14,864 bases of DNA, taken from Methylophilaceae bacterium UBA5127 (GTDB taxonomy: Bacteria; Pseudomonadota; Gammaproteobacteria; Burkholderiales; Methylophilaceae). Each line of letters opens with the position of its first letter. Positions within the stretch are counted from its first letter, which is position 1. Under the pieces are notes generated by a model. The model was not told the origin of the DNA, searched no databases, and saw nothing but the letters and a program-made list of their open reading frames with translations. Shown piece by piece: positions 5,452 through 14,864 of the stretch. The DNA lies in assembly GCA_002414145.1 (NCBI GenBank), contig DHYP01000059.1, forward strand, positions 63,224 to 78,087, given 5' to 3'. A program made the position numbers and the translations under genes.

Positions 5452-6795
5452 ATGAGCTTAAAGCTTAGACTCAACATTATGATTACCTGCTTGCTATTGA
5501 TTGTATTAATCATAGGCGCATGGTTTATGTTGTTAAATGCACGCGAAAATGTACGTGCGGAAATTGAATCAACAGCCAGTCTTACATTACATTTGTTGGA
5601 TAGAGAGATACTATCCTTCTCGGAGACTCCGATTGGTGGTCCCGAAGTGATGCCGTTTCAGTTGGCTAACTTAAGCCATATCAGACATTTACGCATAGAG
5701 TTCTTTGATACTGCAGGCAAACTACGTGATACCAATCAATTACCAAAAACGACAGATAACCAAAGTATATCGCCTAAGTGGTTTGTAAGATTAATGACTG
5801 TAATGTCTCCTATGGAGTTTACTTCACGTGTCGTTATCTTTGGCGGCAAGCCTGTGGGGCAGTTGGTGATTACACCAGATCCTTCCTATGAAATTGAAGA
5901 AATATGGGATGACACTAAAGACTTGCTTGCTTTAGTGTTTATTTTCTTTATCGCGGTCAACATGCTCGTCTATGGCGCTATTGATCGGGCATTAAAACCT
6001 GTGAATAGTATTTTAGCTGCGCTTACTGATTTAGAACATGGCAAGCTTGATACGCGATTACCAGCGTTTGAATTGCCTGAACTCGCTAGTATTGGTACTA
6101 AATTTAATGGTATGGCAGAAACACTAGAACTGAGCATTAAACGAAATTTAGGTTTATCTAGGCAGATTATTAGTCTAGAAGAGGTTGAACGTAAAAGCTT
6201 GGCGCGTGATTTACACGATGAAATTGGGCAAAGTATTACCGCGATACATATTGATGCTCAAGCCATTTTAAACATTAGTGAATTCAATCAAATGTCTATC
6301 GACAATCTAAGAATAAGTGCTCAAGCGATTATAAATGTAACCAAGAAGATGATGGGAATCACCCATCAAATACTAGAGCGCTTGCGCCCCGATACCATTG
6401 ATAAGCTAGGTCTTAAGACTGCATTAGAAGACTTGGTGTCGTCTTGGCAGCCTAAGCTGGGTAAAGCCATTTGCAGTCTCAATATTTCTGGTGAGCTGGA
6501 AGGTGTAGCTGAAACTGTAGCGATTACAGCATATCGGGTCATTCAAGAGAGTATGACCAATATTGCACGTTATGCTCAGGCAGAAAGGGTCTCTATAGGC
6601 ATTTTGCAAGAAGATGAAGTTTTGGTGTTAATGGTAGAGGATGATGGACTTGGATTTAACACAGAGGACATGACAAATGGTTTTGGTTTAACTGGCATGC
6701 GTGAAAGGGTAGAGGGTTTAGGTGGTGAGTTTGAACTGGATAGTGCAATAAATAAAGGTACGCGTCTGGTAGTGAGATTGCCACTTTTAGGGTAG
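5452..6795 (+). CDS. Membrane sensor histidine kinase, NarX/LiaS (HisKA_3) type with a LapD/MoxY-like N-terminus
   Basis: Inner-membrane kinase of 447 residues. TM1 is about 9-28, a periplasmic sensing region about 29-155 and TM2 about 158-178. A HAMP linker follows (179-228, beginning DRALKPVNSI), then the HisKA_3 dimerisation helix with phospho-accepting His255 in ARDLHDEIGQ, and an HATPase_c domain with N-box Asn370, DDGLGF at 397-402 and GFGLTGM from 410. The opening MSLKLRLNIMI and the short periplasmic part resemble the LapD/MoxY N-terminal family, which includes the methanol-utilisation sensor MoxY; this assignment is from memory and moderate. The ATG at 5452 has no clear ribosome-binding site, but it places TM1 correctly. 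Its partner regulator gene follows after 37 bases. The signal sensed cannot be read from the sequence. Confidence 0.93.
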   Translation: MSLKLRLNIMITCLLLIVLIIGAWFMLLNARENVRAEIESTASLTLHLLDREILSFSETPIGGPEVMPFQLANLSHIRHLRIEFFDTAGKLRDTNQLPKTTDNQSISPKWFVRLMTVMSPMEFTSRVVIFGGKPVGQLVITPDPSYEIEEIWDDTKDLLALVFIFFIAVNMLVYGAIDRALKPVNSILAALTDLEHGKLDTRLPAFELPELASIGTKFNGMAETLELSIKRNLGLSRQIISLEEVERKSLARDLHDEIGQSITAIHIDAQAILNISEFNQMSIDNLRISAQAIINVTKKMMGITHQILERLRPDTIDKLGLKTALEDLVSSWQPKLGKAICSLNISGELEGVAETVAITAYRVIQESMTNIARYAQAERVSIGILQEDEVLVLMVEDDGLGFNTEDMTNGFGLTGMRERVEGLGGEFELDSAINKGTRLVVRLPLLG

Positions 6796-6832
6796 GAATA
6801 GAGTTAATACATTAATTAATATAAAGATAAAA

Positions 6833-7477
6833 ATGAGCAAAGATGTAATAAAAATCATGTTGGTTGATGATCACGCTGTTGTACGTTCAGGTTTGCGAAG
6901 GTTAATGGAGAATCAAGCGAATATAGTAGTCACAGTCGAAGCTGAGAACGGTCAGCAAGCCTATCAATTATTTAGCTTATCCAAAGTGGATGTGATTGTG
7001 ATGGATTTGTCCATGCCTGGCATGGGTGGATTAGAGTCTGCAAGACGAATTATTGGGCGCTATCCATCAGCAAAAATTATCATATTTTCTATGCACGATA
7101 ATGCCACATTTGCATCGCAAGTGCTTAAGGCTGGAGTAAAAGGCTATGTGACGAAAACAGGTGCAGATAGTGACTTAATTAAGGCTGTGCAAGAAGTAGC
7201 TAAAGGCAAAACATATTTAAGCCCAGAAGTCGCTCAAAAAATAGTGATGGAAAATATGGTGGGTGAAGATAATCCACTTAACGTGCTCTCTGCGCGTGAG
7301 TTTGAAGTATTTAGATTGCTTACCGAAGGTGTGACTACTGAAGGTATTGGTACAAGACTCAAAATCAGCCAGAAAACGGTAGCAAACTACCATACCATGA
7401 TTAAACAGAAGTTAGGTGTCAATAGCCCCATCGAAATGGTGAGGCTTGCACTACGATTTGGTGTGATTGAAAGTTAA
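6833..7477 (+). CDS. Response regulator, NarL/LuxR family
   Basis: Cytoplasmic DNA-binding regulator of 214 residues, partner of the kinase 37 bases upstream. The receiver domain (about 5-120) has the acidic pair Asp12-Asp13, phospho-acceptor Asp58 in VMDLSMPGMGG, switch Ser86 and Lys108. The LuxR-type helix-turn-helix (about 150-210) contains LSAREFEVFRLL, then TTEGIGTRLKISQKTVANYH and the dimerisation end. Everything needed for phosphorelay and DNA binding is present. The ribosome-binding site is weak (AAAGAT at 6823-6828), suggesting coupling to the kinase gene. If the kinase is MoxY-like, this would be the MoxX-like partner. Targets are unknown; the downstream pilin cluster is one candidate. 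Confidence 0.95.
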   Translation: MSKDVIKIMLVDDHAVVRSGLRRLMENQANIVVTVEAENGQQAYQLFSLSKVDVIVMDLSMPGMGGLESARRIIGRYPSAKIIIFSMHDNATFASQVLKAGVKGYVTKTGADSDLIKAVQEVAKGKTYLSPEVAQKIVMENMVGEDNPLNVLSAREFEVFRLLTEGVTTEGIGTRLKISQKTVANYHTMIKQKLGVNSPIEMVRLALRFGVIES

Positions 7478-7662: not shown

Positions 7663-7709
7663 TGCCACCATAGCAAAAATACAATGTAACTATGGTGGCA
7701 AATTTTTTT
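7663..7709 (+). terminator. Terminator-like hairpin just upstream of the PglL-like gene
   Basis: TGCCACCATAG (7663-7673) and CTATGGTGGCA (7690-7700) form a perfect 11-pair stem around a 16-base loop, followed by AA and seven T (7703-7709). It ends 30 bases before the chosen ATG of the glycosyltransferase. Either it stops upstream transcription or it acts as an attenuator for the downstream gene. A small dyad ACCGCA-G-TGCGGT follows at 7710-7722. Confidence 0.6.
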
Positions 7710-7739
7710 ACCGCAGTGCGGTGGTCAGATATAAGATTT

Positions 7740-9485
7740 ATGCCTAATAATTTATTTGTAAGCTTACAAAAACATTCGGTTTTAGCTTTAACTTCCCTCG
7801 CTCTCACCGCGCTGATGTGCGCGGTGCCTTTTTTGCAAAGTTTTCAACTTGATTTAATTTATTCCTTTAATGTTCAAATGTGTAGTGCAGCACTGGGCTT
7901 GCTTGCTTGCTTGGTGTTATTGCGTCCGATATTCTGGCGTCCGCTTTATTTTCCTGTGATTGCTTTAGTTCCTGTAGGGTTAATACTGATACTTGCATTA
8001 CAAGTATGTTTTGGTTTGATGAGCTATTGGCAGCAACACTTTTTAATAGGTCTGTATTTATTTTGGACGTTATTAATGATGCTGTTGGCTATAGCGCTAT
8101 GTCGAGAGTTTGAATTAGCTAAAATTGTTCCCGTACTGGCTTGGGTGGTATTTATTGCTGGAGTGACCAGTGCTGTGATTACAGTAGCAAAACCGATTAG
8201 TGTTAGTCTAGGTGTTGTAGAGTCCTTAAATCAATCTAAGCAATTAGCCAATTTTCTAGCGTTATCTCTGGCTTCATTACTCTACTTATTAAATACAAAA
8301 CGCGTTCCTATCAGTGTTGCTATGATGGTAGGCACGCTGCTTTTATTAGCACTTGTTATCAGTCATCAATATTTGAGTTGGTTGTATCTTGCCATATTGT
8401 CAGTTGCAACATGGTTACCCATAAAAGATAAGAGAATGTTGCCTTGGCAATCGGTATGGCTGATTACAATTTTTGTTATATGGCAGTTGCTATTGCCCCA
8501 AATCAGCATTCTTGGAGATCATGTTTTTTCAAAGGAAGTTCATCCAGCCAGTTTAGACTTGTATTGGCAATATTTAGATGAAGCATGGCAGATATTCTTA
8601 AATTATCCGTTACTTGGTGCGGGTTGGGGGCAGTTCGGCTGGCAAGACTTTCAGCTTGCTGAGGCTTATCCGCAGCATACAGGATGGATTAAGCACCCTC
8701 ATAATTTAATTCTTCAACTACTTGCCGAAACTGGATTGGCAGGCACGGTTATCTTTATTTTGGGCTTAGTGTTTTGGTTAAAACGCGGGTTGCAAGAGGA
8801 TGTAAGTGCAGAACGCAGATGGATATACACCGCACTTAGCTTGTTGTTTGTGTATGCGATGTTCGACGATGGGTTGAGTGACTTACATGTGTTAGGCTTG
8901 TTTGCTTTGATGTTAGGCTTGTTAGAGGCGCGTGTTTATAAAGTATTGCTTGAGTGGGGACATTTGATTGCAGGGTTGGTGATTGTATTGAGCGGTTTTG
9001 CTTTATATCAGCACACTACACATTATAAAAAACTGCAATATTGGTATGCGCAGAATAGTTTCGAACGCATTACTGATAATCAGGCAAGACCCATGTTAGC
9101 GCAAATGGGCGAGTTGCGTCATCAATCACTTTTAACCCCTTATATTGATTTAGCCATTGTGCGCGCTTTGCCAAACAGCCCAACCTTAGTCAGTGATAAG
9201 CTTAGTCTGAATACGCAGTTAATCCAGCATAGTCCGAATGCGCAAGAGGTCTATACTCAGGCCGAATTACTTGCGTTAGCGGGTAAAACAATACAAGCCA
9301 AACAGCAATTACAGCGTGCACTGATCAGGCACCCAGACCATCTTTACCATTTTACGATGCAATTGTTAAAAAATCAGACCAAAGAGACATTGCCATTGCT
9401 GCATATGATAGTGAGGCATAACCGTCAGTTTATGCAAGACCAAAAGAATCAGAAAAATCCCAAAGTCAGCGGGAAAAACTCCTAA
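7740..9485 (+). CDS. O-oligosaccharyltransferase / O-antigen ligase family protein (PglL/WaaL, Wzy_C type)
   Basis: Polytopic inner-membrane enzyme, 581 residues from ATG 7740. Members move a lipid-linked glycan to pilin Ser/Thr (PglL, TfpO) or to lipid A core (WaaL). About a dozen hydrophobic segments are visible. The diagnostic part is the large periplasmic loop and Wzy_C motif: GAGWGQFGWQDF, then KHPHNLILQLLAETGLAG, with candidate catalytic His319 and His321. A soluble C-terminal region (about 420-581) contains a helical, TPR-like stretch near AEVYTQAELLALAGKT-type sequence. An in-frame ATG at 7692 would add 16 residues but lies inside the 3' arm of a hairpin, so 7740 is preferred; neither start has a good ribosome-binding site. 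The prepilin gene 215 bases downstream argues for a pilin-glycosylation role rather than LPS. This is inference from context. Confidence 0.85.
   Translation: MPNNLFVSLQKHSVLALTSLALTALMCAVPFLQSFQLDLIYSFNVQMCSAALGLLACLVLLRPIFWRPLYFPVIALVPVGLILILALQVCFGLMSYWQQHFLIGLYLFWTLLMMLLAIALCREFELAKIVPVLAWVVFIAGVTSAVITVAKPISVSLGVVESLNQSKQLANFLALSLASLLYLLNTKRVPISVAMMVGTLLLLALVISHQYLSWLYLAILSVATWLPIKDKRMLPWQSVWLITIFVIWQLLLPQISILGDHVFSKEVHPASLDLYWQYLDEAWQIFLNYPLLGAGWGQFGWQDFQLAEAYPQHTGWIKHPHNLILQLLAETGLAGTVIFILGLVFWLKRGLQEDVSAERRWIYTALSLLFVYAMFDDGLSDLHVLGLFALMLGLLEARVYKVLLEWGHLIAGLVIVLSGFALYQHTTHYKKLQYWYAQNSFERITDNQARPMLAQMGELRHQSLLTPYIDLAIVRALPNSPTLVSDKLSLNTQLIQHSPNAQEVYTQAELLALAGKTIQAKQQLQRALIRHPDHLYHFTMQLLKNQTKETLPLLHMIVRHNRQFMQDQKNQKNPKVSGKNS
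7805..7834 (+). other. Terminator-like hairpin inside the 5' coding region of the PglL-like gene
   Basis: CACCGCGC (7805-7812), loop TGATGT, GCGCGGTG (7819-7826), then CC and six T (7829-7834). The 8-pair GC-rich stem with a T-tract looks like an intrinsic terminator although it is translated. It could also pair with GTGCGGTG at 7716-7723 (one wobble), which would prevent it forming. Confidence 0.4.
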
Positions 9486-9700: not shown

Positions 9701-10615
9701 ATGAAAAGATCAATGTTTGATAAAAAACAAAAGGGTTTTACCCTTTTAGAGCTGCTAGTGGTCATTACACTGCTAGCTATCTTATCAGTAGGTGCATTAG
9801 TGGCTTATGAAGGTATTGGCGATAACGCACAGGCAACAGCAGCAGCAAATAACACCTCTGGTGCGGACCGTGCCATTCGTAACTTCCGTGCAGTGACACA
9901 GAACTATCCTAACCAATGGGATAATTTGGTGACTGATGCAGGTGCAAAACCAGCTTTCTTAGCTGCCGACACAGCAGCTGCATTCTCTAACTGGGCTATC
10001 CCAGCACCAGCTACAGCTTTCCGTACTGCGCTTGATGCTGCGTTTGCTAAGGTAGGTATTACTTCGATTCAACAGCGTACTGTAGCAACAACTACAGCAG
10101 GTGTTGAACCAAACTTACAACATAATGAAGGCGCTGTTGGTGGTGATGCTGTTGAAACAGTTGTTACAGCAGCTACATTCGATAACGTTGCAATCTTGCC
10201 TACATTTGGTACTGCGGCCTGCTCTGTAGCTGGTGTTGCTTTGCCTGTTACAAAAATTGACGGTACAACTGCGGTTGCCGCAGCTGATGGCGCTCGTCAA
10301 AACGTCATTAACGATAATTTGGAAAGTAATGAATGTAACTTGGTTATTGCGCTAGGTTTTGGTCACGATGCTGCACATAGCACATCAGGTACATCAGTAG
10401 CGATTTCTACAGCGCCTACATTTGTAAGCAAAGACATCAATCCTAACAACGCTTATGCACGCTATATTGCACTATTCCATGTGGGTGCTGATGGCAATGC
10501 GGATAATAACATTACAGATGCTGAAGTTTTCACAACACCGCGTCTTTTAGCTGTAGTTGATACAGAAGGTCATATGATTGATGAAAACATTGCTGCGCAA
10601 AATCCAGTTAACTAG
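9701..10615 (+). CDS. Type IV prepilin / major pseudopilin-like protein
   Basis: Filament subunit of 304 residues. The prepilin site is classical: short basic leader MKRSMFDKKQKG, cleavage after Gly12, then FTLLELLVVITLL with Glu at mature position 5. The hydrophobic N-terminal helix runs about 13-40. The large C-terminal head is rich in Ala and Thr and has only two cysteines, C174 and C212, which could form one disulfide. Segments rich in Ala/Pro (near WAIPAPAT) and Ser/Thr (near STSGTSVAISTAPT) are plausible O-glycosylation zones for the transferase encoded just upstream. The start is fixed by GGAGAAG at 9688-9694. Strong ribosome-binding site, short leader and first position suggest the major subunit; the head is not recognisable as a known pilin class. 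Confidence 0.88.
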   Translation: MKRSMFDKKQKGFTLLELLVVITLLAILSVGALVAYEGIGDNAQATAAANNTSGADRAIRNFRAVTQNYPNQWDNLVTDAGAKPAFLAADTAAAFSNWAIPAPATAFRTALDAAFAKVGITSIQQRTVATTTAGVEPNLQHNEGAVGGDAVETVVTAATFDNVAILPTFGTAACSVAGVALPVTKIDGTTAVAAADGARQNVINDNLESNECNLVIALGFGHDAAHSTSGTSVAISTAPTFVSKDINPNNAYARYIALFHVGADGNADNNITDAEVFTTPRLLAVVDTEGHMIDENIAAQNPVN

Positions 10616-10733: not shown

Positions 10734-11834
10734 ATGCTTAAGTTTTATCTAAGCCTACCATTGCACCATATTGCCCAACAGCGATATGGCTTTTTGCCTT
10801 GTGGGCATTTAGCTAAGCCTTTTGCTGGGTACTTAGGTCAAGCAAAGTGTCAGCAAGGTTTTAGCTTGTTAGAGTTGCTGGTGGTGATTAGTTTGCTAGG
10901 TATCGTAGGGCTTACTGCTACTACTTATATTATCGACACAGGTGAAATCAAGCGCCAAGATGAAACTACCCAACGTTGGGATGCCATACGCAAAGCCATT
11001 ATTGGCGAACCCAATTTAAGTTTAAACGGCTCACCTTATGTGAGTGGTTATGTGGCTGATATGGGACGTTTGCCTAGTAATATTCAAGAGTTGTTTGTGC
11101 AAGGGTCACAGCCTGCTTGGACAGAGATTAATTTATATACTGCTGGTACTGGTTATAGCGCAGCCCTTGGTGGTGGTTGGCGTGGTCCATATTTATATAC
11201 AGCGGGTAGTCGGTTTTATCGGGATGGGTGGAATAACGAGGATGGTAATGCAGCAAACGATACGATTAACTTTGGCTGGAATGTCACTTTAACTGGAACC
11301 GCGCCTGATTATACGGATATTGCGATACAAAGCTTAGGTGATGATAACCTAACAGGCGGTATTGAGTTTAATGAAGACTTTCCATCAAATGCCGCACAAA
11401 ACATGGTGAGTTACAACGAATGGACGTTAAGTACAGCGCCTATAACCTTCAACATAAATTTTAATAAAGCTGTTACAAGCATCCCTCTTGATACATCTTC
11501 AAGCCTACAGTCATTTGAATTGAGAATTTATCGCTATGTAGATGATGGCGGTAACACGGCTGATATTAATGATGTTGATATTACGTCTGCTGATAGCACT
11601 TTTACATTAACTCCAAATGCAACCTCTGCGCCAACACAAACGCTTACTCCTACTGCAAACTTACCAGTGGGTAGAGTAGCGGCGGTAATCTGGTGTACTA
11701 ATAATACCCCAACGGTAACTACAGATGATGCTATTTATGATGGTGACTGTGATACCACTTATCAACATGCTCCAGTTTACTTCACGCTAAACCATAATAC
11801 CTCTCAAATCACAATAACTTGGAATCTCCCTTAG
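10734..11834 (+). CDS. Second prepilin-like protein with an unusually long leader
   Basis: Filament or minor pseudopilin subunit of 366 residues. The prepilin motif QQG then FSLLELLVVISLLG is clear, with cleavage after Gly42 and Glu at mature position 5. The 42-residue leader is much longer than the usual 6-30 and contains Cys23 and Cys39. The start is nevertheless well supported: GAGGGG at 10720-10725 sits eight bases before the ATG, and the alternative TTG at 10794 has no ribosome-binding site. After the hydrophobic helix comes a GspG-like part (LPSNIQELF, GWRGPYL, FYRDGWNNED). A Thr/Ser/Asn-rich, probably beta-sandwich C-terminal part follows, with two cysteines near the end (VIWC, DGDC). 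It lies 10 bases before the PilM-PilN-like gene and is probably co-transcribed with it. Confidence 0.85.
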   Translation: MLKFYLSLPLHHIAQQRYGFLPCGHLAKPFAGYLGQAKCQQGFSLLELLVVISLLGIVGLTATTYIIDTGEIKRQDETTQRWDAIRKAIIGEPNLSLNGSPYVSGYVADMGRLPSNIQELFVQGSQPAWTEINLYTAGTGYSAALGGGWRGPYLYTAGSRFYRDGWNNEDGNAANDTINFGWNVTLTGTAPDYTDIAIQSLGDDNLTGGIEFNEDFPSNAAQNMVSYNEWTLSTAPITFNINFNKAVTSIPLDTSSSLQSFELRIYRYVDDGGNTADINDVDITSADSTFTLTPNATSAPTQTLTPTANLPVGRVAAVIWCTNNTPTVTTDDAIYDGDCDTTYQHAPVYFTLNHNTSQITITWNLP

Positions 11835-11844
11835 AAAGTAGGGC

Positions 11845-13641
11845 ATGCTGTTGAATCAATACTTAGAAAAAATCCCATTTTTGAATTCAGTAAATGATGT
11901 GATGGTGTGTGAGGCAGATGCCATTGGTATGCGTGCAGCCGTATTTCACCGTAACCGAGATGTGTTGACGATTGCTTTAGAGGCGCATGCCGATGCTATT
12001 GATTTAACCAGTGCTGTTGCTGAGTTAGTACAACAATTACGCAGACAAGGTTGGGTTGGCAAGCAGGCTTTGCTGTTAAACCCTGCAGTGGTACAAAGTT
12101 TAATTGAGTTACCTATTCCACCAAAAAACAAATTGTCGCCTCAACAAATCGCAGAATCGGTACGTTGGGAGTTAGAGCCTTATTTAACGCAACAATTACG
12201 TTATTTGAGTATTGGTCAAATTTTATTGCAAAACAGGTTTATTAAGCAGGAGCAGATTGAAGAGATTTTAGCGCAGCAAGAAATGACTAACGTAAGTAAA
12301 GACCGAGAAGTGCTTTATAAACGCTTTGGTGAGTTGGCAATAGCGCTGGGTTATGTAACGCAGTCACAGCTTGATAAATGTTTATTAAAACAAGCTTGGT
12401 TTATGACTAAAGGGGACGATATTCAGTGCGGTTGGGCGTCGCAATCGCAACAAGCTAACCCTGAAACCAATTTATTCGCATGGCTCGCCGTGGGGATGAA
12501 TAAAAACTTATTACGTCAATGGCAGGCAGCGTTTTCATCACAAGGCGTAAAGCTCAACTATTGTTATCCCATGTCAGGTAATGCATTTGCTGTTGTTGAA
12601 AAGTCTAAACAATCTTCCAAGCGACAAGAAGATACTACGCAAGATGATTTAGTGTTTGAGGTGCACGAATCATTAATCACTGAGATACATCTGCAAAATG
12701 GGCAGTTAAAAAGTCTGCAACACCTTGCCTTACAGGCAGAGCAAGCATTGAGTGTGATCAGTGATTATTACCACCAATTAGGATTGGAGAGCATAAACAG
12801 CATTAGTTTAATTGATGCGTTTAGCAGAAGTGAGCAAGAGGTCGCGCAGCTAGCTGCAGACTTACAAAATGTGGTGTCTCAACCTGTGAGTACTTATGGC
12901 AGATTAGGACATAGTGCACATTTAGGTTTTAAGGCAGTAGCACTACACTTTATGCAGCCCAAATTGGCTTTATCTGTTGCCGCAGTGCCTGTAGACGAAG
13001 TGCAACCACCCTTAATGCAACGTCCTGTGGTGCGTAGCATATTAGCAAGCTTAATCATGCTCAGTTTATTAGGGCTAGCGGAAGGTAGCTTGCAAGTCCG
13101 TCAATATATGATTGAGTCAGAAAAAGTGCAGGTAGACCGAGACTTGGCAAAAATCAATCAAGCAATTGCGCGTGTGCAAGCAAAAGTGGATAAGGTTAAG
13201 AAGCTCAAAGTGAGTATTAAAGAAAAACAAGAGGAAATCAAAGAGCTTAATAACTCAATTGATCTGCTTTCTATACAGTTACCCAATAGAAATCAATCAC
13301 TTACAAACTTATTAAATGAGCTGAATAGAACCGTCTCTGAGGATGTGGTGATTGATAAGATTGCTGAAGACACTATTTTGGGATTTAGCATGAATGCATG
13401 GTCTATTAATGAAAAGTCTGCCCAAGAGTTCATTAAAAGCTTACAAATTGCAATTCATCCATTAGGTTATAAATTAAAAGATATTACCGTGACAGAGCAA
13501 ACTGGTCGGTTAGGATTATTAGGATACGCAGTCAACTTTAATATGACTTCACTTAATGATGAGGCGTGGAATAAGGCGAAGCTTCAGTCTGGAGTAGGCT
13601 CAGTTTCAACAGCCAATAGTGCAACTATAGGGAGCAGATAA
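11845..13641 (+). CDS. PilM-PilN (GspL-like) fusion protein with an inserted MshEN/T2SSE_N-like motif pair
   Basis: Inner-membrane platform protein, 598 residues. Residues about 10-120 resemble the PilM/GspL cytoplasmic actin-like fold (SLIELPIPPKNKLSPQQIAE, then VRWELEPYL). Residues 122-145 and 160-183 form two 24-residue helical motifs with the pattern of MshEN/T2SSE_N domains. The actin-like part seems to resume to about 385. A single transmembrane segment (about 396-413) is followed by a Lys-rich coiled coil (421-475) and a PilN/GspL-like periplasmic domain (476-580). The stop overlaps the next start (TAATG), so the two are translationally coupled. The start is slightly uncertain: AGAAAG (11833-11838) fits ATG 11845, whereas AGGG (11840-11843) better fits the TTG at 11851, two codons later. 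Separate pilM and pilN genes are the norm in type IV pili; fusion is GspL-like. Confidence 0.82.
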   Translation: MLLNQYLEKIPFLNSVNDVMVCEADAIGMRAAVFHRNRDVLTIALEAHADAIDLTSAVAELVQQLRRQGWVGKQALLLNPAVVQSLIELPIPPKNKLSPQQIAESVRWELEPYLTQQLRYLSIGQILLQNRFIKQEQIEEILAQQEMTNVSKDREVLYKRFGELAIALGYVTQSQLDKCLLKQAWFMTKGDDIQCGWASQSQQANPETNLFAWLAVGMNKNLLRQWQAAFSSQGVKLNYCYPMSGNAFAVVEKSKQSSKRQEDTTQDDLVFEVHESLITEIHLQNGQLKSLQHLALQAEQALSVISDYYHQLGLESINSISLIDAFSRSEQEVAQLAADLQNVVSQPVSTYGRLGHSAHLGFKAVALHFMQPKLALSVAAVPVDEVQPPLMQRPVVRSILASLIMLSLLGLAEGSLQVRQYMIESEKVQVDRDLAKINQAIARVQAKVDKVKKLKVSIKEKQEEIKELNNSIDLLSIQLPNRNQSLTNLLNELNRTVSEDVVIDKIAEDTILGFSMNAWSINEKSAQEFIKSLQIAIHPLGYKLKDITVTEQTGRLGLLGYAVNFNMTSLNDEAWNKAKLQSGVGSVSTANSATIGSR

Positions 13642-14393
13642 TGGCATTTGAAAAGATGACAAATCGGGAGCAAGTGCTGGTATTTATTGTAGTGGGTATA
13701 TTTGTGCTAGGTGCATACGGCTTAGTACGTTACCTGCCTGTCAACAAGAGCATTAATGAGTTAAATGCCAGTTTGGAGAAAAATAAACAGCAAGTGAAAG
13801 CCCCCAAGATTCCTGATGAACCAGTGGAGTATCCAGAAGATTTACAAGAGCGTGAGGCATTATTAGAGCAGCAGTTAGTGACTTTACGTAACAATATGGA
13901 TACCTATGAAAAAAATCTAGCGCCTATTGGAAGCCAAGATATGGTGCTCAAGATTTCTGAAGCAGCACGAGCAGCTAATGTAAAGGTGATTGAAAGTGTG
14001 CCTTACATAGTGCAACGTGCAAATGGTGAAGCTACCACTACACAAAATAAACCTAAGCTATCGAAACGCGCACAAAGGAAATTAGATCGTGAAGCGTACA
14101 AAAAAGCACGTAAGACAGGAAGTGTTGTTACCAGCGGTCCTACAGCTACGCAGGGTGCTATCCCTAAAGAAGGTGAGTTAATCTTTCATTTGGTGAATGA
14201 CTTTGAAGAAGCTAGGCCTTTACAAAAAATCAGCGTGGAAGGCATATTTTCTGACTTGCAAAATTTTATGCAAGCCATTTCGAATATGCCTTATCAAACC
14301 ACGATAGTGAAGCTTGATATTGATGTGAAGATTCAAACACCACCCCAAGGTGTTCCACAGCCGCTAATGGCCCGTATGATTATTGCAATGTAA
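13641..14393 (+). CDS. PilO/GspM-like inner-membrane platform protein
   Basis: 250 residues: a short cytoplasmic N-terminus, one transmembrane helix (about 9-32), a coiled coil (about 36-95), and a periplasmic domain ending IVKLDIDVKIQ, typical of the PilO/GspM ferredoxin-like fold. PilO pairs with PilN across the periplasm and links the platform to the secretin. An odd feature is a very basic stretch at about 137-160 (Lys/Arg about half of the residues) inside the periplasmic part. The ATG overlaps the stop of the previous gene by one base, and GGGAG at 13630-13634 gives good spacing. Assignment rests on architecture and gene order; sequence identity in this family is always low. Confidence 0.8.
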   Translation: MAFEKMTNREQVLVFIVVGIFVLGAYGLVRYLPVNKSINELNASLEKNKQQVKAPKIPDEPVEYPEDLQEREALLEQQLVTLRNNMDTYEKNLAPIGSQDMVLKISEAARAANVKVIESVPYIVQRANGEATTTQNKPKLSKRAQRKLDREAYKKARKTGSVVTSGPTATQGAIPKEGELIFHLVNDFEEARPLQKISVEGIFSDLQNFMQAISNMPYQTTIVKLDIDVKIQTPPQGVPQPLMARMIIAM

Positions 14394-14398
14394 TAACG

Positions 14399-14864
14399 AT
14401 GGCATTTAGCGCAGAACAACTTATTGATGCAGGCTTAAGGCAAAACATGATTCAAGCCGATATGCTGAATCAGTTACGCACTGAGGCCAGACGTAAACGC
14501 ATTGATGTATTGGATGCCGTTTGCGCGCATTACCGCTTGCCTATGAACTCATTCTATCGAGCAAGCGCGGAATCCAGAGGGCTGCCATTTATTGAGTATG
14601 AGCAGATGCAACTAGTTGATTTGGAAGCGCTTAAAAAAATTCCACAGGCATTAGTTAAACGTAAGGGTTACCTGCCAGTAAAGCTAGATAATGATCTAAT
14701 ACTAGCAACATTAGATCCTGATGATCGCGCGAGTATTGATACTGTGAGACGTGTTTTAGGTAAGCCATTTTCTGTGGCGATGGCAGAACCCAATACGCTC
14801 AATGCAATGTTAAATCGTGCTTATGACGCTATGAATATTAGTAATGCTGCTATGCCAACAACTA
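14399..14864 (+). CDS. PilB/GspE-type assembly ATPase, N-terminal part (runs off the window)
   Basis: An open frame of 155 codons from ATG 14399 to the window end without a stop. Residues about 1-50 are helical (EQLIDAGLRQNMIQADMLNQ). From about 58 a T2SSE_N domain is recognisable: ESRGLPFIEYEQM, LKKIPQALVKRKGYLPVKL, LATLDPDDRASIDTVRRVLG, then ANPNTLNAMLNRAYD-like sequence. This is the N-terminal module of the cytoplasmic hexameric ATPase that drives pilus or pseudopilus assembly. The Walker motifs would lie beyond the window, so ATPase activity is inferred. It starts five bases after the PilO-like stop and has no clear ribosome-binding site, so coupling is likely. Confidence 0.88.
   Translation, partial: MAFSAEQLIDAGLRQNMIQADMLNQLRTEARRKRIDVLDAVCAHYRLPMNSFYRASAESRGLPFIEYEQMQLVDLEALKKIPQALVKRKGYLPVKLDNDLILATLDPDDRASIDTVRRVLGKPFSVAMAEPNTLNAMLNRAYDAMNISNAAMPTT

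Follow-up and report, generated by a model that had tools for sequence, protein, structure and literature searches.

The stretch of DNA analysed here, called the window, comprises 14,864 nucleotides of contig DHYP01000059.1 (positions 63,224 to 78,087; assembly GCA_002414145.1) from Methylophilaceae bacterium UBA5127. A gene on its forward strand (11845..13641, +) encodes a PilM-PilN (GspL-like) fusion protein of 598 residues, which is encoded near a pilus or secretion motor ATPase (within window 13641-14863) and consists of an actin-like cytoplasmic domain with the fold of PilM/GspL, an insert of the MshEN_N type, a membrane helix and a PilN-like part. MshEN_N is the 53-residue, four-helix half of MshEN that binds cyclic di-GMP (c-di-GMP); the other half, MshEN_C, is absent from the insert. 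The insert spans approximately residues 121-191 (12205..12417, +), is flanked in the actin-like domain by helix 99-120 and strand 193-199, and contains two tandem 24-residue repeats that form a four-helix bundle. Repeat I (residues 122-145; 12208..12279, +; SIGQILLQNRFIKQEQIEEILAQQ) has Ser1, Gly3, Arg10, Ile17, Leu21 and Gln24 and is degenerate at positions 1 and 10, and repeat II (residues 160-183; 12322..12393, +; RFGELAIALGYVTQSQLDKCLLKQ), with Arg1, Phe2, Gly3, Gly10, Leu17, Leu21 and Gln24, is near-canonical. They are separated by a spacer of 14 residues (146-159; 12280..12321, +).

An earlier note on this DNA had described both repeats, at these positions, as a possible MshEN-type module. 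Its coordinates are exact, since residue 122 begins at 12208 and residue 183 finishes at 12393, and a search of all six reading frames of the window located the 24-residue pattern in this protein alone, with exactly two matches. When the protein was shuffled 20,000 times, at least one match arose in 172 shuffles and two matches in none. The note had also given the spacer as 14 residues instead of the 5 of MshEN_N, which holds for the window protein; across the family, however, the length varies, 14 being the most frequent value (24 of 47 members) beside 11, 16, 18 and 19 (range 11-19). This family of 47 proteins, the window protein included, was obtained from a search over about 5.8 billion sequences in which 7,995 candidates were scored.

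Homology of the insert to MshEN_N is supported by profile comparison. NF053729, the NCBIfam model of the MshE-related c-di-GMP motif (53 positions, curated cut-off 38 bits), matched residues 123-183 of the whole protein (E 2.4e-8, 33.6 bits) and scored above its cut-off both on an 86-residue piece (39.3 bits) and on the PilM-PilN frame in a search of the protein's own genome (39.9 bits). It was also matched by 45 of the 47 family members at E<=1e-3. The profile search that the earlier note had called for, counting an absent hit against its proposal, therefore gave a match. The Pfam model MshEN (PF05157) did not match the PilM-PilN protein, on which no Pfam model reached its cut-off; on both ATPases scanned, the region matched by PF05157 lay beyond about residue 60, so that this model is no test of the part found in the insert. 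Matches of SHS2_FTSA (E 0.11) and FumaraseC_C within the insert were taken as chance. Among all Protein Data Bank (PDB) chains compared with the insert, MshE ranks first. In the structure model, block 151-160, at the spacer, has a predicted local distance difference test (pLDDT) value of 69.

The module is inserted, as seen by comparison with eight PilM-PilN fusions (P0048-P0055; 33-92% identity to their query L026), among them proteins of a Desulfoluna sp. and of a Deltaproteobacteria metagenome-assembled genome. These fusions align on both sides of it and show a gap at the module itself. The same holds for the fusion at locus L082, which is alignable on both flanks but lacks the MshEN_N block, and whose gene row, assigned by reading translations, is PilMN, PilO-like, a short gene and secretin-like. 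NF053729 found no match in any of the eight fusions at E<=0.1, and Pfam PilN was above cut-off in both of those scanned. They are distant from the window protein (13-16% identity), and a profile comparison with P0051 gave E 7e-4 and a probability of 26%. According to the model and the alignment, the four helices of the insert lie in the block that these relatives lack; they are not an ordinary part of the PilM actin fold, which the earlier note had named as a second outcome that would speak against it. The strand-helix-strand-strand order around the insert is presumably that of the 1C/SHS2 subdomain of PilM/FtsA.

The insert is present across the family. A single-sequence scan of a contig collection found no relative, and an alignment-based scan of the same collection found 18 loci, 16 of them with a full-length homologue and all 16 with the insert. 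These belong to Methylotenera, Methylomonas, Methylophaga, Methylomicrobium, Methylobacter, an Alteromonadales isolate and unclassified gammaproteobacteria. In a separate genome scan set, the aligned insert segment was found in 18 of 18 loci, the window's own locus (L021) included; L050 and L054 are probably the same records as L003 and L004. This alignment supersedes an earlier pattern-only reading of nine such regions, which had recognized the insert in four. A class-level scan of 369 genomes matched 24, five of them (G000, G160, G119, G247 and G052) at E<1e-60; of the remaining 19, 18 matched through the insert stretch or the coiled part alone, and G221 contains an insert-less relative. A family-level scan of 187 genomes matched 41, 14 at E<1e-100. 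Three in-frame TGA codons were first given for the G160 homologue, but translation of L022 showed an open frame without them.

Sequence comparisons within the family revealed that the residues expected to contact the ligand are unevenly conserved. Across the 47 rows, repeat I has Ser in 25, Ala in 8, Thr in 6 and Arg in none at position 1, Gly3 in 44, Gly10 in 35 and Gln24 in all 47; repeat II has Arg1 in 36 and Lys in 3, Gly3 in 47, Gly10 in 35, Leu21 in 45 and Gln24 in 46. In 44 of 47 members, both repeats are hydrophobic at positions 2, 17 and 21. All four Gly3/Gln24 residues are present in 43 of 47 members, in each of the 16 full-length loci of the contig collection and in the window protein. 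By weighted information in the 47-row alignment, the Gln24 residues rank 40 and 52 and the Gly3 residues 34 and 29 of 598. Further ligand-side positions are less conserved (ranks 84 to 395), with the exception of position 161 (rank 13). The third of the earlier note's provisos, that homologues should keep the pattern, is thus borne out in these 47 proteins, but in the separate genome scan set the four residues are complete in fewer loci, as discussed below. Its interpretation as an MshEN-type module is supported, none of the three contrary outcomes having been observed. In three members (P0025, P0026 and P0028), position 3 of repeat I is Ala instead of Gly, and this sub-clade may have lost the half-site. 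In constructs of GSPII-A of the ATPase PilF, binding is both weaker and altered when position 3 of motif II is Ala (PMC12002112).

The partner ATPase lacks the motif that the fusion protein carries. This GspE/PilB-type protein, encoded two genes downstream, is represented in the window by its N-terminal 155 residues (14399..14863, +), in which the MshEN_C part is present (PF05157 at 61-144, E 1.5e-14); no c-di-GMP motif was found in its first approximately 60 residues, and it is absent from the NF053729 matches of its own genome. In the scan that found 18 loci, the ATPase starts about 0.7-1.0 kb past the PilMN stop in the 16 full-length loci and in the remaining two lies after the partial match, and none of the 19 N-termini compared (window and 18 loci, 155 residues each) matched NF053729 at E<=0.1. 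We do not claim a strict swap, in which loss of the ATPase motif would have accompanied gain of the insert, because motif-less ATPase N-domains are known elsewhere; moreover, no ATPase was obtained from the insert-less loci, where contigs C37 and C154 of G221 stop too soon.

The same genome encodes a second, MSHA-like cluster (L106:8291-14759; G000:C38), assigned by reading translations, and its MshE-type ATPase has an intact canonical motif, RLGDLMVQQGLISQDQLRIALIEQ..., with 63.1 and 59.2 bits in two NF053729 searches. One cell therefore carries the motif on the motor of one machine and on the stator of the other. The full mirror arrangement, with the motif on the ATPase and none on the stator, is upheld for the ATPase half and not for the stator half. 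The candidate stator by position and by eye, a 532-residue neighbour (L106:12547-14145), has no Pfam match and no c-di-GMP motif match, and its profile comparison with the PilM-PilN family gave nothing (probability 0.4, E 0.17). A further motor ATPase frame (G000:C59:3004-4981, 655 residues, partly masked) also matches NF053729.

Downstream of the fusion gene, a 250-residue protein (13641..14393, +) is weakly assigned as PilO/GspM-like from its operon position and from matches that are all below cut-off (DivIC E 0.00087, T2SSM E 0.032, PilO E 0.055). Upstream lie two type IV pilin-like proteins (9701..10615, +, N_methyl E 4.1e-10; 10734..11834, +, N_methyl E 4.3e-7), the second directly 5′ of the fusion. 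Directly upstream of the pilin-like genes, window 7692-9485 encodes a membrane protein with Wzy_C and Wzy_C_2, of the O-antigen ligase or pilin oligosaccharyltransferase type, which suggests that the pilins of the cluster are glycosylated. The pilus cluster is closely preceded, at window 5452-7477, by open reading frames that resemble a histidine kinase and a response regulator, judged from translations.

We modestly favour the reading that the segment is an MshEN_N module inserted in the actin-like domain of a PilM-PilN/GspL-type stator, where it binds c-di-GMP and gates assembly via the stator. Of the two roles that the earlier note had considered, a nucleotide sensor or a mimic of the ATPase's N-domain, retention of Gln24 and Gly3 in both repeats favours the sensor. 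The ligand would be bound mostly by Gly3 and Gln24 of both repeats and by Arg1 of repeat II, with repeat I as the weaker half-site. Binding may move the actin-like domain, to which the ATPase would dock; a c-di-GMP-responsive bundle at this place could alter how the motor docks or how the domain is coupled to the fused PilN-like helix, and c-di-GMP would gate filament assembly at the stator, not at the motor. Docking of the motor is a known role of PilM/GspL, and in Thermus PilM and PilN together stimulate the motor about twofold (PMC6325625; PMC8389850). The genome has 20 GGDEF matches, so the c-di-GMP signal is likely made; a pattern search found a GGDEF protein adjoining the cluster at only 1 of 14 loci scanned (L012), which argues against a local cyclase as a conserved neighbour.

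Several observations weigh against this reading. The foremost is that Arg1 is absent from repeat I in 47 of 47 members, with Ser in the window protein, where position 10 is moreover Arg. The published relaxed motif [RKPN]hGxx... is matched by repeat II in 30 of the 47 members and by repeat I in none. As repeat I of the window protein does not have the Arg, Lys or Leu accepted at position 1 (PMC11731258), we claim membership in the fold family, not among proven binders. Positions 122, 138, 142, 176 and 180 show no special conservation (ranks 354, 395, 298, 225 and 159 of 598). The four Gly3/Gln24 residues are complete in only 12 of the 18 loci of the separate genome scan set: Gln24 of repeat I is missing from three distant members (L023, L024 and L025) and Gly3 of repeat II from L058 and L059, and in L062 (L062:1501-3159, G491) the inserted segment is kept but nearly the whole pattern is lost. 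The NF053729 score of the whole protein stays below the cut-off, the Foldseek E-values are weak (best 0.28), and the model of the insert alone has a mean pLDDT of 71.9. Finally, in a reconstruction of Thermus PilF GSPII-A, Ser at position 1 of motif II causes complete loss of binding (PMC12002112); Ser1-Ile-Gly-Gln4 of repeat I conforms to the N-cap rule quoted there, and such a cap could occupy the amides needed by guanine. Locus L062, together with L023, L024 and L025, forms a natural series for decay of the site.

Much of this evidence also bears on an alternative that we consider somewhat unlikely but weighty, namely that the MshEN_N fold has been kept without ligand binding, as a docking helix bundle only, for example replacing the ATPase's ND0 sub-domain in place or in contacts. 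The loss of Arg1 throughout is joined by a residue other than Gly at position 10 of repeat I in 12 of 47, and the set of four Gly3/Gln24 residues is incomplete in 6 of 18 loci, one of which has lost nearly the whole pattern, with the segment kept. The GSPII-A construct with Ser at the equivalent position of motif II does not bind, and ND0 domains without c-di-GMP residues have been described for Xanthomonas PilB and XpsE. The effects of such substitutions in PilF and MshE suggest that Ser may weaken or cancel the half-site of repeat I. Yet the ligand glutamines and the Gly3 residues are among the better-ranked positions of the protein, and the described non-binders had lost Gln24, which is kept here. 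Among published mutants, MshE G11L and G40I bind poorly if at all, changes of Arg9, Asp12 and Gln32 cost at most about fivefold (PMC5013675), and in PilF GSPII-B a change of Lys to Leu at position 1 of motif I is tolerated (KD 2 nM), while a double Gln-to-Glu change abolishes binding (PMC11731258). The Gln and Gly residues being kept in the window's own clade argues that a ligand still matters there. Their incompleteness in the wider set of loci slightly lowered our estimate for ligand binding, which stays modestly probable, and slightly raised that for lost binding, which stays somewhat unlikely.

The insert may instead bind another cyclic dinucleotide, or bind asymmetrically (3′,3′-cGAMP, or a half-occupied site), the two half-sites differing in a fixed way; we regard this as improbable. 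The uniform absence of Arg at position 1 of repeat I beside Arg or Lys in repeat II in 39 of 47 fits such an asymmetry, and MshEN itself binds cGAMP, with a KD of 3.3e-4 M. However, the backbone amides to which its exclusion of adenine is ascribed (PMC5013675) are still expected in the insert, and the genome has the GGDEF matches mentioned above; cGAMP synthases were not searched for. A chance resemblance of two amphipathic helix pairs of the actin-like fold itself is very improbable, given the shuffling result, the NF053729 matches in nearly all members, the absence of the segment from aligned relatives and the first rank of MshE among PDB chains.

On the reading that the module binds c-di-GMP, we tentatively propose that this clade has its c-di-GMP switch on the stator: PilM-PilN would be the receptor, the ATPase N-domain would be blind, and an asymmetric pocket with a Ser-type and an Arg-type half would confer an affinity or ligand choice unlike that of the MshE-type ATPase in the same cell. 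The incomplete loci moved this proposal, too, from near even to its present, more tentative standing. If it is true, the two pilus systems of one cell would answer different signal levels, and a receptor in the stator would raise the question of whether the PilM/GspL docking step alone can gate a pilus or a type II secretion machine. Members of the family are carried by methylotrophs such as Methylomonas, Methylobacter and Methylotenera, which are culturable and harmless, so that a practical test is possible.

In known systems, c-di-GMP controls type IV pilus assembly through MshEN on the motor ATPase or through FimX/PilZ (reviewed in PMC11656802). MshEN in PilM or GspL is not mentioned in the titles and abstract openings of the papers listed in literature searches for this pairing, searches that did not extend to the supplementary domain tables of PMC5013675. 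The insert resembles the MshEN domain of Vibrio cholerae MshE (PDB 5HTL) and GSPII-B of Thermus PilF (8PDK) in its two 24-residue repeats, four-helix bundle, Gly3 and Gln24 in both repeats and near-canonical repeat II. Unlike these, it lies inside a PilM-type protein instead of at an ATPase N-terminus, is not followed by MshEN_C, has a spacer of 11-19 instead of 5 residues and lacks Arg1 in repeat I. Between its helix 99-120 and strand 193-199, the window protein has some 70 residues, including the MshEN_N module, that are without counterpart in the stators PilM (2YCH, 5EOU) and GspL (1YF5, 4PHT). NfrB and EpsG-type proteins likewise carry MshEN_N outside pilus ATPases, and the 86-residue piece weakly matches TIGR03029 (EpsG, E 2.6e-4) and NF008411 (c-di-GMP-activated NfrB, E 0.006), far below the cut-offs; their outputs, however, are a tyrosine kinase or a glycosyltransferase, not a secretion stator.
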